A DNA stretch of 28,481 nt from a virus. A program made the position numbers and the translations under genes. Numbering within the stretch: the stretch's first letter is position 1; each line of letters begins with the position of its first letter. Below the pieces are notes generated by a model. The model was not told where the DNA came from. It worked only from the letters and a program-made list of their open reading frames with translations, and made no database searches. Location of the stretch: positions 1-28,481 of the IMG/VR virus record IMGVR_UViG_3300032087_001340. One strand, given 5' to 3'. Shown one piece after another: positions 6,357 to 23,103 of the stretch.

Positions 6357-7585
6357 AGTTTTAATTTTAGTAGTATTTTTTCAAGAACACGAACTGTGAT
6401 TGAATTTCCAGCTTGTTTATATGCTTGTGTATCTGATACGACACTAAAATCAAATGAATCTGGGAAGTCTTGCAGTCTGAAACATTCACGTGGTGTTAAA
6501 CGTCTTATTCTGTTGTAAAAAACAAATTGATCAGTATTTCCACCACTTCCAGTTGCAGTGTGTATCGTTTGTGATACAGTTTTTAATTTTCTTTTAACAA
6601 TCTTTCCATGTGAATCTCTTGTATATCCTATAATAGTACATTGATTGCACGATGTGTCAAGTGTTTGTGCGACTTTTTTACCTACACGACCTCGCCTTGT
6701 TTTTGAATTTGGAACACTCAAATTTATTGAATCACCTTCTTCTGCTTTTTCATAACCATTTGATGTTGCTGATTTTATTAGTATTTGATTCCCACTACCC
6801 TCCGATGCTTTTATTGTTGGGCTCAAGTCTTTATATCCTTCAAAACCTTTTAAATGGTGTCTGTAATTAGCATGATCCTTTTTAATAAGTATTTTTGAAC
6901 TAACTTCTTTTGAAAGAAAATATTTTTCATCAACATCATATTCGAGAACATCTTTCAATTTTTTTGTCAAATGTTCTTTTTTAGGAAACTGAAATATGTT
7001 ATCTTGATTATCACGAATTCCGATTAAAAAAACACGTTCACGATTTTGGGGTATACCATGTTCTTTTGTGTTTAAAACTTGCCAATATAAATGATATGGA
7101 ACAGAATCTTCATCTGGAAATAAAACTGATAAACCATTCACTGATTTACCACCTAACAACCGAATCCATTCACCGAATGTTTTTCCATTATCATCAGAAA
7201 GTAATCCTTTTACATTCTCAAATATGAAAAATCGTGGTTTATTAATTTTGATAAATTCATGTGAATTGAAAAATAATATTCCACGTTCATCATCTTTTCC
7301 CTTTCGTTTTCCAGCCAATGAAAAAGATTGACATGGTGGTGAAGTCATGTACACGTCAAGTGATTCTTTTGGTATTTCACGATCATAAACATCATGCGGA
7401 AAATAACCTGGTTCACCATGATTGTGTGCATATGTGATTCGTGCATATTTATCCCAATCACAAGCATAAATTCGTTCATGCTTAATTCCTTTTGATTCGC
7501 ATACTCTATTCATCGCATAATCAAATGCACCGACACCAGAAAAATCACTTCCAGTTGTTATTATTTTAGAATGGACATTCATCAT
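6353..7585 (-). CDS. DNA (cytosine-5) methyltransferase
   Basis: C5 methyltransferase of 410 residues from the ATG at 7585 (a farther ATG at 7663 would overlap the primase gene by almost 100 nt). Motif I DFSGVGAFDYA (14-24), motif IV SPPCQSFSLAGKR with the catalytic Cys85, motif VI ENVKG (123-127), motif VIII QNRERVFLIG (180-189), and motifs IX-X (RRLTPRECFRLQDFP, then QAGNSITV at 391-398). The target recognition part (about 250-355) holds three similar segments of the kind SPTIKAS, AQTLDTS and SQTIHTA. It probably masks phage DNA from host restriction. No matching nuclease is next to it. Base use looks more AT-rich than in the primase gene upstream. Confidence 0.93.
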   Translation of the reverse strand: MMNVHSKIITTGSDFSGVGAFDYAMNRVCESKGIKHERIYACDWDKYARITYAHNHGEPGYFPHDVYDREIPKESLDVYMTSPPCQSFSLAGKRKGKDDERGILFFNSHEFIKINKPRFFIFENVKGLLSDDNGKTFGEWIRLLGGKSVNGLSVLFPDEDSVPYHLYWQVLNTKEHGIPQNRERVFLIGIRDNQDNIFQFPKKEHLTKKLKDVLEYDVDEKYFLSKEVSSKILIKKDHANYRHHLKGFEGYKDLSPTIKASEGSGNQILIKSATSNGYEKAEEGDSINLSVPNSKTRRGRVGKKVAQTLDTSCNQCTIIGYTRDSHGKIVKRKLKTVSQTIHTATGSGGNTDQFVFYNRIRRLTPRECFRLQDFPDSFDFSVVSDTQAYKQAGNSITVRVLEKILLKLKL

Positions 7586-9920
7586 CTTCGGTTTTTGTTT
7601 CGTTTGTGTTAATTTCAAAATATCGACCAGAATGATCACGATCTTTATTGAAGTCGTATCCATTCAAGTCAGACCATCTCATCACCCATTTCACGAATGT
7701 ACGATGATTCAAATTGTGATATGATTTGTGTTCTTCTTTGAATTGATTCGCAATTTCTGTGATGTACACACGACAGTTTTTCTGAATGTTTCCTTCTTCA
7801 ACCCAATCGTAGAAATCTTTGTTTGTCTGCTGAATAAATCGTTTGACATCAGCATTGATTGATACTGGATTGGTTAAACCATTATTCAAATATTTCTGTG
7901 TGATATGAATGATATAATTGTCGAATGCAATCCAGTCTGCTTCATCCCATCCAGAGAAGAACATCTTGCCATAAACATCAATCGGTTGACGTTTAGCACT
8001 GAAATATTGAAAGAATTCTATTTCGTGCCTTCTACGATCATGCGAACCACCAGAACCATTGATCACATAATTCGTTGTGATGATGATTTTCGGTGATCGT
8101 TCATATGGCAAGAAGAATTCACCTTTGAATAATTGTCTGACTTGAATTCCTTCCGTTATCAAGCTGAACAGATTCTCAAAGTTGAAATTCTTGCGCACAT
8201 CATCAAATGCCAGAACTTGTGTATCAACATTGACACGTTGATAAACGAATTCTGAACGATTTGGATCAAATGTCTTTCCATCTATCTTTACCAGTTGCTT
8301 GAATTTCATGATTGCTTGTAGCATCAAAGACTTTCCAGAACCACCATTTGCATCATCTGTGATTTCTTGGTCATTCAGAATCACTGCTTTCTGTTCTTTT
8401 TCATCCTTGTGCGAATGAATCAGATATCCGATTGTATTTTCAAGTGCTTCAATTCGTTGTGGATCATCTGCTGATACCTTGTGAATGAAATCTTCAAAGT
8501 CATTTGTGTATTGTGTTGAATGCTGATAGTCACGATCAATTATCTGCTGTTGCCATACAAATCCATTCACATCTACATACGACTTGAATTCAACAGATTT
8601 CTTGTTGATGCATACCACACCATTCTGATAATACAGATAACATTTTTCTTTTGTGTCCATCAGCATATTCAATGCAATGGATTCAAGCATATTCAGATGT
8701 TCATCTGTAAAGATCTTTGTTGTTTTGGCGCAATAGTTCCACACCTGGTGATGTTCCTTTTGTTCTAAATAGTTCAGCACAAAATCTTTAATCTTTTCAG
8801 TCGATGTTGTTCGCACAATGTTTTCTTGATGTCGAACAAATAAAGGTGTGTTTGAATCCTCTGGATAGTATTTACAGAATCCATGTTCTTCAAGGAACAA
8901 TTTGTATTTCATTGGATCTATTGTCACACGTTCATGTCCATTATTTGACCTTGTGATGTTCCAGAATTCAATGTTGTTTCTTCTTATTTCATCAGATATC
9001 TGTTCGATCTGTTGTGCATCCATTCCAAGTGAACGGCTTATCTGATCAGCATTGTCACCTTTGCGCACTTTCATTTCAACACGTTTCAGTGTTTCCTTAT
9101 CTTCAAAGTATTTCGTTCCGAATGATGCACGTTTGTATGCTGAATTAATGCAGTTCCTTGTTTCTTGTTCTGTGAAGTCACCATTCACAACATTGCGCCA
9201 TATGTATTCAAATGCGAACTGATCTTCAATGCCATAATTACAGAATGCACAAGCCAATATATATAACACATTATTTCGATCACCTTCTGTAAATGAATAG
9301 TTTTCGTTCCACCACTTCATCAGTCGTGTGATGATTTCATTTTCATTCTTTAATGGAAGTATTGCTTCACGTTCAGTGACTGTATATCCAGATTCACTTG
9401 CTTTTACAATCCATTCTTCTGATTCTGAATTGATGTATATCTTTGGATCGTATGATTCGAAACATACACGTGATATGTTGCAATTCTTTTCATCGAAATA
9501 CTCTGAATCGAAATGCTTCTGCAATGATTTGAAGTACAACTTGTGATCATCTTTGTCACATTTCGGAATTTTGACCAATACTTTCAGACCATTTCCAGAT
9601 GGTGATGTGAACACACTGAACACAAACGGATCTGATTCAAGTTTTGATCGTTCAGCATTCATTGATTTCTTGTTTGGATATTTATCGAAGTCGAATATGC
9701 ACAATCCAGAATGTTCAATCAGTGAATTATCGTTTCTTGATGTGAATGTTCCATTGAAACAAATTGCTGGAAGTCGTTTCTTTGATTCTGAATCACCTTG
9801 TCGCACATCGTTGATGATGTCTTTTGATTTCCCTTCTTTGATTCTGTTTAATACATCATAAACGTCAAGTGTGAATGAAACTTGTTTTTCATACAAGTTT
9901 TTGAAGAACGATACTTTCAT
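7566..9920 (-). CDS. VirE_N (BT4734-like) / SF3 helicase fusion: primase-helicase
   Basis: Large replication protein of 784 residues. The N-terminal domain (about 45-170) is VirE_N/BT4734-like: GLCIFDFDK (DxD at 77-79), SPSGNGLKVLVKI (106-118) and ISRVCFESYDP. These resemble the three motifs of archaeo-eukaryotic primases, but the usual His of the second motif is replaced. A PriCT-like helical part follows (about 190-270). The C-terminal half is an SF3/D5-type helicase: Walker A NGGSGKS (about 525), Walker B LAFDDV (about 572) and a TTNY motif C (about 617). It should unwind the phage origin and may prime. It is the core of the replication operon. Confidence 0.87.
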   Translation of the reverse strand: MKVSFFKNLYEKQVSFTLDVYDVLNRIKEGKSKDIINDVRQGDSESKKRLPAICFNGTFTSRNDNSLIEHSGLCIFDFDKYPNKKSMNAERSKLESDPFVFSVFTSPSGNGLKVLVKIPKCDKDDHKLYFKSLQKHFDSEYFDEKNCNISRVCFESYDPKIYINSESEEWIVKASESGYTVTEREAILPLKNENEIITRLMKWWNENYSFTEGDRNNVLYILACAFCNYGIEDQFAFEYIWRNVVNGDFTEQETRNCINSAYKRASFGTKYFEDKETLKRVEMKVRKGDNADQISRSLGMDAQQIEQISDEIRRNNIEFWNITRSNNGHERVTIDPMKYKLFLEEHGFCKYYPEDSNTPLFVRHQENIVRTTSTEKIKDFVLNYLEQKEHHQVWNYCAKTTKIFTDEHLNMLESIALNMLMDTKEKCYLYYQNGVVCINKKSVEFKSYVDVNGFVWQQQIIDRDYQHSTQYTNDFEDFIHKVSADDPQRIEALENTIGYLIHSHKDEKEQKAVILNDQEITDDANGGSGKSLMLQAIMKFKQLVKIDGKTFDPNRSEFVYQRVNVDTQVLAFDDVRKNFNFENLFSLITEGIQVRQLFKGEFFLPYERSPKIIITTNYVINGSGGSHDRRRHEIEFFQYFSAKRQPIDVYGKMFFSGWDEADWIAFDNYIIHITQKYLNNGLTNPVSINADVKRFIQQTNKDFYDWVEEGNIQKNCRVYITEIANQFKEEHKSYHNLNHRTFVKWVMRWSDLNGYDFNKDRDHSGRYFEINTNETKTEDDECPF

Positions 9921-21497: not shown

Positions 21498-21824
21498 TCA
21501 ATCTTCTTCATTTCTGATTTGTTTCAGCTTTCTTTGCGCCCATGCGATGCCTTCATCACCACCCCATGCCAACCACATCAATCGACCACAACCATCACCA
21601 AGTTTCTTCTTTGAATTCTGTCGATGCCTTTCGAACCCAGCCATCCTTGCAATGGTTTCTTCTGATATCGGTTCACCTTTGGCAAGTTGATTTGCTCTTT
21701 GTTTTCCGACTGCTGTACCACACGAACCCCATCCATTTTTTTCAGCATAATTCAATGCCACTTGTGCATTCTCTGATGCCTTTTTTGGATAGTCAGTGTA
21801 AGATTCGAATTTACTTATTGAAGT
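21498..21824 (-). CDS. C-terminal extension of protease in the -1 frame (WGG-type domain)
   Basis: This open frame has no ATG. Going upstream from the conserved part it is open through KFESYTDYPKK to the A10 run at 21833-21824, and meets a TGA shortly before it. A -1 shift on that run joins it to the protease, giving a chain of about 303 residues. The domain (NGWGSCGTAVGKQRANQLAK, then GEPISEETIARMAGFERHRQ, then a GCGRLMWLAWGG stretch and a closing helix) is, as I remember, a conserved module next to or fused with prohead proteases and other head proteins in many phages; its function is unknown to me. A GTG at 21761 is the only alternative start near the domain and would cut off the conserved first part. 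Confidence 0.72.
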   Translation of the reverse strand, partial: TSISKFESYTDYPKKASENAQVALNYAEKNGWGSCGTAVGKQRANQLAKGEPISEETIARMAGFERHRQNSKKKLGDGCGRLMWLAWGGDEGIAWAQRKLKQIRNEED

Positions 21825-22408
21825 TTTTTTTTTGACATCTTCAATTCAATCTGATCAAGAAGTTCAGAAATACGTTTAAATGCTCTGAATTCATCCATGA
21901 CAAATGTTCCTTCGATGCTGAATCCAGTCATTTCACCAGATTTCACACGTTGATACAATTCATCATTTTCGAATTTGTACGATGTAATCCATGAACCATC
22001 GTTTGCATCTTTGAATCTTTCCGGTGCAGTGAATCCTTTTGATTTGTCAATCTGATATGAATGAATCATGTACACACCTTCTGCAACATCTTTGTCATCA
22101 TGCTCGATGTTCAGATTGTTGAATCGATTGTTTCTCGCATAATCGTGAATGATATCTTTGATTGCATCCTTTGTGAACACAACATAATATTCATCGAATC
22201 CATCGTTCCGATATATCGGTGTGTCCGCAGAAATTGCCACACCAGAAACAACTTTTTCTTCATCGTTGAATTCATATCTTTGCACCTTCTTGAATGTCTG
22301 AAAGGATATCATATGCGCTGGATCGTGAACAAGACTGTTATATTCAACCCCAGTGTTTTCATCAGACAAATCAATCTTGATTTCGTATATCGGCAAATTT
22401 GTATCCAT
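21815..22408 (-). CDS. HK97-type prohead protease
   Basis: Serine protease of 197 residues from the ATG at 22408 (the frame is open up to 22510 but that would overlap the divergent gene). Catalytic motifs: NIEHD with His103 and GFSIEG with Ser164. The segment VAISADTPIYRNDGFDEYYV is the usual substrate-binding strand. It should remove the scaffold and mature the capsid; the scaffold and capsid genes follow. The last codons run over an A10 homopolymer and stop two codons later, a classical slippage arrangement (see the separate entry). Confidence 0.85.
   Translation of the reverse strand: MDTNLPIYEIKIDLSDENTGVEYNSLVHDPAHMISFQTFKKVQRYEFNDEEKVVSGVAISADTPIYRNDGFDEYYVVFTKDAIKDIIHDYARNNRFNNLNIEHDDKDVAEGVYMIHSYQIDKSKGFTAPERFKDANDGSWITSYKFENDELYQRVKSGEMTGFSIEGTFVMDEFRAFKRISELLDQIELKMSKKKLQ
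21824..21833 (-). other. A10 slippery run, probable -1 frameshift site
   Basis: Minus strand reads ATG TCA, then ten A, then CTTCAATAA: in frame 0 the protease ends after Lys-Lys-Lys-Leu-Gln. A -1 shift (or one extra A in the transcript) enters the long WGG-domain frame, which lacks its own ATG. A one-base error in the homopolymer would give the same picture. Confidence 0.65.
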
Positions 22409-22430
22409 TTGTGTATATTCGTTTTTATAA

Positions 22431-22446
22431 TGTGTTAAAGTGTATG
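22431..22446. repeat. 16-bp exact repeat upstream of the protease gene
   Basis: Second copy of TGTGTTAAAGTGTATG. On the minus strand it lies 23 nt before the protease ATG; on the plus strand its last three bases are the start codon of the divergent glycosyltransferase-like gene. Confidence 0.5.
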
Positions 22447-23103
22447 AAAACAAAAGTGTTCGTTTATCCTTATAAATTAAAAGGTGATAATTTCTGCATT
22501 GAACATTCAATCAGAATGGTTCGAAAATATTACTCTGATGCTGAAATTGTCACCATCGGTGATCGTTGTGGATTTGAAGATGTCAACATTCCATTCAAAG
22601 ATTCATTCAAAGATCGTGGTTCAAATGTCACTGCGAAATGTTTGCAATCTGCATTCATATACGATTCATTCATTTATATGAACGATGACTTCTTCATCAA
22701 TGATAGATATGATCTGAACATCACACATGGTTCATTGCATGACCTGGAAAGAAAAGATCGTGCATCAGCGAACTGGAACACTGCAACAACAAACACCATG
22801 CACTGGTTGAAATATAATGGTCACACGATTCGTTCATTCGAATGTCATCAACCAGTGGTGTTCGATTCAAAAAGATTGATTGATCTGATGTCACAAATCG
22901 AATGGAAAGAAAATCCACACTTCATCAAATCATTGTATTTCAATGTTCACGTTCCGATTCGATTTCAACCGATTGACAATACCAAGCTGATAAAGTTTGA
23001 CAAGAAACGTGCATCATCGTTGTTGTCCATTCATGGATGCTTGTCAATTGGTGGTGACTTTCTGAATGTCTCTGGTGCTGACTATATTAAAAAGTTGACC
23101 TAA
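22444..23103 (+). CDS. Stealth/glycosyltransferase-like protein, only plus-strand gene
   Basis: Protein of 219 residues (ATG at 22444 chosen; a start at 22399 would overlap the protease). It begins KVFVYPYKLKGDNFC like a glycosyltransferase strand, contains FIYMNDDFFINDRYD (NDD at 80-82), which resembles the CR2 motif of Stealth-type sugar-phosphate transferases, and later ECHQPVVFDSKRL, similar to their CR3 (His-x-Pro). It may modify a sugar on the virion or host surface. Its 3' end overlaps the convergent tape measure gene by 17 nt. It looks like an accessory gene inserted between tape measure and protease. No clear promoter is seen. Family call is by motif only. Confidence 0.68.
   Translation: MKTKVFVYPYKLKGDNFCIEHSIRMVRKYYSDAEIVTIGDRCGFEDVNIPFKDSFKDRGSNVTAKCLQSAFIYDSFIYMNDDFFINDRYDLNITHGSLHDLERKDRASANWNTATTNTMHWLKYNGHTIRSFECHQPVVFDSKRLIDLMSQIEWKENPHFIKSLYFNVHVPIRFQPIDNTKLIKFDKKRASSLLSIHGCLSIGGDFLNVSGADYIKKLT

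Follow-up and report, generated by a model that had tools for sequence, protein, structure and literature searches.

Ig-like domains occur on phage structural proteins either in frame or by way of a frameshift, as described for T3 and Lactobacillus phage A2 (Fraser et al. 2006, as summarized in PMC5009743). Likewise, a -1 shift in gene 10A/10B of phage T7 extends the C-terminus of some copies of a head protein (PMC5009743). Our literature searches, which had partial coverage, returned no paper that pairs programmed frameshifting with a prohead protease or XkdF with a frameshift. Here we describe a phage locus where a prohead protease gene meets the coding sequence of a small domain, called the WGG domain, at a run of ten A residues. 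We assign a probability of about 85% to the reading that this A10 run is a programmed slippage junction, through which one gene would yield both the protease alone and a protease-WGG fusion.

The window analyzed in this study is an entire IMG/VR virus record of 28,481 bases. Its XkdF-type prohead protease gene (21815..22408, minus strand) begins with an ATG at 22408 and is located between the tape-measure gene and genes for coiled-coil and capsid-like proteins. The zero-frame product has 197 residues with the C-terminus ...MSKKKLQ, and it significantly matches the profile for Peptidase_S78_2 (PF14550, XkdF-type phage protease; E=2e-13, 50.9 bits, cut-off 24). Invariant His and Ser columns are present in the protease alignment of the fused family, and proteolytic activity on head proteins is predicted. 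Beside the protease start is a 234-residue ORF (22399-23103, plus strand) that is opposite in strand to the neighboring genes, and a Pfam search with its main part gave no match. The window also encodes a primase-like protein with a BT4734-like N-terminal domain (7566-9920, minus strand). This domain, together with a protease match to Nonlabens phage P12024, hints at a Bacteroidota host.

The sequence-only reading of this locus had described a protease frame that enters the A10 run (21833-21824) and soon stops, and this description holds. The run (21824..21833, minus strand) is read in the zero frame as TCA AAA AAA AAA CTT, and the terminator CTT CAA TAA (21815..21823, minus strand) abuts it. 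The same run is present in two near relatives (L082 and L083), and relatives carry A9-A12 at the same junction. In the -1 frame of the minus strand, a TGA (21846..21848) is located 5' of the run, and the frame is then open up to a stop ending at 21498. This TGA prevents translation from any standard start further 5' in that frame from reaching the WGG domain. Between the TGA and the domain, the -1 frame has no ATG, GTG, or TTG in the window, L082, or L083. The first usable start in the window is the GTG at 21761, which is already inside the domain, so the earlier description of an open frame without an ATG was correct. A -1 shift at the A10 run gives a protein of 303 residues, as had been estimated. 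A10 is the longest homopolymer in the record, but a run of A10+ or T10+ anywhere in the window is not rare per se (a Markov model predicts 0.36 per window). What exceeds chance is the exact position of the run, its conservation, and its recurrence in relatives, not its mere presence.

The WGG domain and its stop (21498..21812, minus strand, -1 frame; KFESYTDYPKKASENA...WGGDEGIAWAQRKLKQIRNEED) include an invariant WGG, and the domain is conserved across 74 aligned sequences. Its sole family match is phrog_2859, a PHROG of unknown function, and searches against Pfam, NCBIfam, and PDB sequences gave nothing above cut-off. An AlphaFold model of the domain has five helices with a mean pLDDT of 94.6, unlike an immunoglobulin-like beta fold. 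When the modeled fold was compared to the PDB, there was no match at E<=0.001 and none with Z of at least 5, a result that does not imply a novel fold. The fold does match many predicted phage proteins, among them entries for XkdF, portal, and prohead protease proteins.

Comparison with homologous loci, which had been proposed as a check, revealed fused, -1, and stand-alone forms of the domain. The nearest fused homologue (L118) shares 59% identity with the window protease across 190 residues and reads in frame through an A11 run. Its model has two confident domains joined by a low-confidence linker (residues 178-203) that contains KKKK. Given the position of the Lys run in this linker, stopping there should leave the protease whole, as is also suggested by relatives such as L084 that naturally end near that point.

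The rival explanation named in the sequence-only reading was a homopolymer indel in the assembly, such that the real run length differs and the gene is a single frame. The standing of A10 as the longest homopolymer of the record would fit this explanation, as would the existence of fused relatives. However, L082 and L083 are distinct contigs from another dataset, and both retain the A10 run and the -1 relation despite nucleotide differences of 29-33 in the protease part and 13-26 past the A run. The three genomes keep A10 while dS among them is 0.18-0.38, and 19 distinct junctions in 8 clusters are all shifted one way and never +1 (among the matches listed). Therefore, an assembly error fails as an explanation and is the least credible of those considered.

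The same comparisons bear on whether the locus carries a true frameshift mutation, with the domain on its way to loss and the downstream frame decaying. Relatives that lack WGG, such as L084, manage with the protease alone, and the WGG dN/dS between the window and L083 is 0.25 (12.7 silent and 13.3 amino-acid changes in the WGG frame, and 28 silent and 1 amino-acid change in the protease). Against decay, the WGG frames of the window and L082 differ by 11 silent changes and 2 amino-acid changes (dN/dS 0.04), and their proteases by 33 silent changes with no amino-acid replacement. Across all pairs of the three genomes, the protease has 22-33 silent and 0-1 amino-acid changes, and dN/dS in the WGG frame is 0.04-0.29. 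None of the three copies has a stop or indel in the WGG domain and the A10 run is unchanged, although the zero-frame stop differs in L083 (CTT TAA). Moreover, the arrangement recurs in many lineages. Because both frames and the run have been kept while silent sites diverged, a sequencing slip or a dying gene is unlikely, and we give decay very little credence.

The distribution of the junction was then assessed with a pattern scan for A9+ runs shortly 5' of the YxDYP start of the domain, the counts from which are a sample (among the matches listed). Most loci recovered carry the WGG domain (among the matches listed), and a stricter A9+ pattern scan of genome contigs gave no match. Among the matches listed, there are 107 distinct A9+ junctions before WGG, including 88 that are fused in the zero frame, 19 that need a -1 shift, and 0 that need a +1 shift. 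Clustering at 70% identity (among the matches listed) yields 23 clusters with the fused form and 8 with the -1 form, and several contain both. The -1 relation thus occurs with A10-A12 in 8 separate clusters and never as +1 (among the matches listed). Every -1 type A-run junction has A10 or longer, and the zero-frame stop is within three codons in 16 of the 19 (among the matches listed). A tree of the WGG domain rests on few alignment columns and leaves many forks unresolved. On this tree, 11 changes account for the -1 state of 11 rows, and well-supported branches force at least 7 of them.

At the junction, A10 is the most frequent run length (among the matches listed). Elsewhere in ORFs, the number of A runs drops steeply with length (654 A7, 156 A8, 34 A9, and 12 A10). 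In-frame fusions join the WGG domain to XkdF proteases, to portal proteins (identified by PF04860 and PHROGs), and to other proteins. As judged from these sequences, the arrangement is widespread, occurring in many phages on protease and portal genes alike. Three portal proteins (L161, L135, and L203) have a small module (roughly EARARAxxMGGxGxHEHxxDGNTVYMPF) between portal and WGG, and a similar module is also present 3' of some proteases.

The mixture of fused and -1 forms within clusters and the A9-A12 range of run lengths could reflect phase variation, in which replication slippage in the A run would toggle the fusion between virions and not within one infection. This process would be expected to produce +1 forms too, but none were seen among the matches listed. 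We therefore regard phase variation as a very unlikely explanation for the junction, though it could coexist with slippage.

Fused relatives carry a distinct signature of a second product. At fused A9+ junctions, a -1 stop is present within one codon in 69% of cases and within four codons in 99% (among the matches listed). The corresponding values are 22% and 58% for run-free fused controls, and 11% and 41% for A7-8 loci. This early -1 stop signature is found in 17 of the 23 clusters of the fused form (among the matches listed). The stop arises from varied amino-acid codons via a third-position T before AA, AG, or GA. Such a T was observed in 69 of 77 codons compared to 34.3 expected from codon usage (among the matches listed), but these loci are related and not independent, and the cluster figure of 17/23 is safer. 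Both non-zero frames stop early in the fused relatives, with the +1-frame stops owing partly to a conserved Leu-Glu (TTA GAA) before the domain. Thus, either the fused or the -1 arrangement would give a short and a long product. The proposal that one gene makes two products is supported by the in-frame fusions in relatives and by the recurrent -1 relation, and production of both is predicted on this basis.

A different possibility is that the domain is translated independently, from a non-standard start (ATT/ATA) or by coupling to the protease stop. ATT and ATA codons are indeed present just 5' of the domain in the -1 frame, and stand-alone WGG genes that start with ATG exist elsewhere (L003, L016, and L019). 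An independent gene of this kind had been cited in advance as a finding that would count against frameshifting. However, these genes are absent from the lineage of the window and so do not contradict slippage where it matters. Independent translation must also contend with the lack of an ATG, GTG, or TTG before the domain in the window, L082, and L083, and it leaves unexplained the conserved long A run, the one-way frame relation, and the second-product stops of fused relatives. We consider it highly improbable.

The association between run and domain was also evaluated in a manner blind to the run, by using searches seeded only with the protease sequence. These searches recovered 72 WGG-bearing and 97 WGG-less genes, and A9+ runs are present in 35 of the former versus 1 of the latter (Fisher p 5e-15). 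When the genes are thinned at 85% identity, the counts are 10/20 and 1/33 (p 8e-5). Within the subfamily most closely related to the window, 13 genes carry WGG and every one has a run of A11-A12 (5 fused and 8 of the -1 type), and the 28 genes without WGG have no A9+ run ahead of the stop. These counts indicate that the run accompanies the domain in these lineages. The other 37 of the 72 WGG-bearing genes, which are of another lineage, have the fusion without a long run, and therefore two products are not required by every phage. Some relatives differ in other ways. A WGG-less protease (L277) has an A10 run at the usual junction and a second A10 run preceding a different C-terminal module. In L296, a small ATG ORF (MFKKKQTKTVSRTSPKGGKRGCLC...) containing A9 overlaps the protease stop. 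In L085-L090, a HAD-phosphatase-like segment (DxDETLSTSRGQ) is fused in frame after the protease core in place of WGG.

Which machine slips is a separate question. The sequence-only reading was correct in proposing a -1 product, given 8 clusters with this relation and none with +1 (among the matches listed), but the slipping agent may be RNA polymerase and not the ribosome. Runs of 9 A or T are reported to suffice for efficient transcriptional slippage in vivo (PMC5009743). The A10 run of the window and the A9-A12 runs of its relatives reach this length, and stops are near in the unused frames (the zero-frame TAA two codons on in the window, and both non-zero frames in fused relatives). Classical -1 programmed ribosomal frameshifting at A AAA AAA or A AAA AAG would give the same products from unaltered mRNA. 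The window has an in-phase slippery heptamer of the X XXY YYZ type (TC A AAA AAA, within TC A AAA AAA AAA CTT), L170 and L134 have A AAA AAG in phase, and one or the other heptamer lies in phase inside every such run. In addition, the short-product layout of fused relatives resembles that of E. coli dnaX, and recoding in phages is often ribosomal (PMC5009743). However, A7-8 runs fit the heptamer yet show no second-product signature, and all -1 type A-run junctions have A10 or more (among the matches listed). Furthermore, an analysis covering downstream stem-loops and upstream Shine-Dalgarno-like sites detected no excess compared to shuffles or run-free controls.

Because runs of at least 9 occur at the junction in every codon phase (among the matches listed), no stimulator was found, stops are near in both other frames, and A7-8 loci lack the second-product signature, we favor slippage by RNA polymerase, albeit by a narrow degree of confidence. 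Classical ribosomal frameshifting is possible but less probable. A mixture of mechanisms, or ribosome sliding, seems unlikely. Sliding on poly(A) in E. coli is robust at A11 with little at A9-A10 (PMC4363877), and it is not preferred here because the most common junction is A10 (among the matches listed).

Under programmed slippage, zero-frame expression would produce the 197-residue protease alone, and a -1 slip at A10 would make some copies the 303-residue fusion. If RNA polymerase adds or drops A residues in the run, part of the mRNA would carry the domain in frame. The run would be situated in a flexible linker joining two independently folded domains. Many phage proteases and portal proteins appear to employ the same pairing of an A9-A12 run with WGG. 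For most relatives, zero-frame translation would give the fusion and slippage the short form, whereas the window and some other loci would make the short form in the zero frame and the fusion by slippage. The domain may serve as an interaction module needed on only a subset of the copies of a head-assembly protein. It is an even bet whether the long A run and WGG constitute a mobile two-part cassette that sets the domain-bearing fraction of protease or portal, dosed by transcriptional slippage.

Several implications follow from this arrangement. For -1 forms, standard gene callers would annotate a truncated protease and overlook the domain, and for fused forms they would overlook the short product. 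The sequence signature of the junction is nevertheless strong enough for a simple scan to find. The junction also makes stoichiometry control during prohead assembly accessible to experiment, and it provides a handle on a widespread, uncharacterized phage domain.

Known examples of recoding in phage heads involve major capsid proteins and Ig-like domains, and here it would involve the maturation protease and portal in many lineages. As in T7 gene 10A/10B, some copies of a head protein would be lengthened at the C-terminus by a -1 shift, but the carrier there is the major capsid protein and here it is the protease or portal. Shigella spa13 and mxiE likewise yield a C-terminally extended fraction by slippage at a run (PMC5009743; references in PMC3711429), although these are type III secretion genes encoding unrelated proteins. 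Thermus thermophilus dnaX, an example of transcriptional slippage, shares a run of at least 9 A/T with stops near in both non-zero frames, and its long product is in the zero frame as in our fused relatives (PMC5009743). It differs in that the present genes are phage head genes, whose heterogeneous mRNA is a prediction, and the zero-frame product of the window is short. Many fused relatives resemble E. coli dnaX, with its -1 ribosomal frameshift, in having an in-phase A AAA AAG and an immediate -1 stop, but runs here are at least 9 long and not A6G, with no excess of Shine-Dalgarno or stem-loop elements found. The Ig-like systems, as summarized in PMC5009743, are similar in placing a mobile C-terminal domain on different structural proteins, in frame or frameshifted, with two products. 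In the present system, an all-helical, unnamed domain is carried by prohead protease and portal, and the junction is a long A run with no detected stimulator and one exclusive direction (among the matches listed). Because of the similarity to Ig-like domains, we consider this a known type of arrangement and not a categorically new one, with a domain, carriers, and junction that are different.
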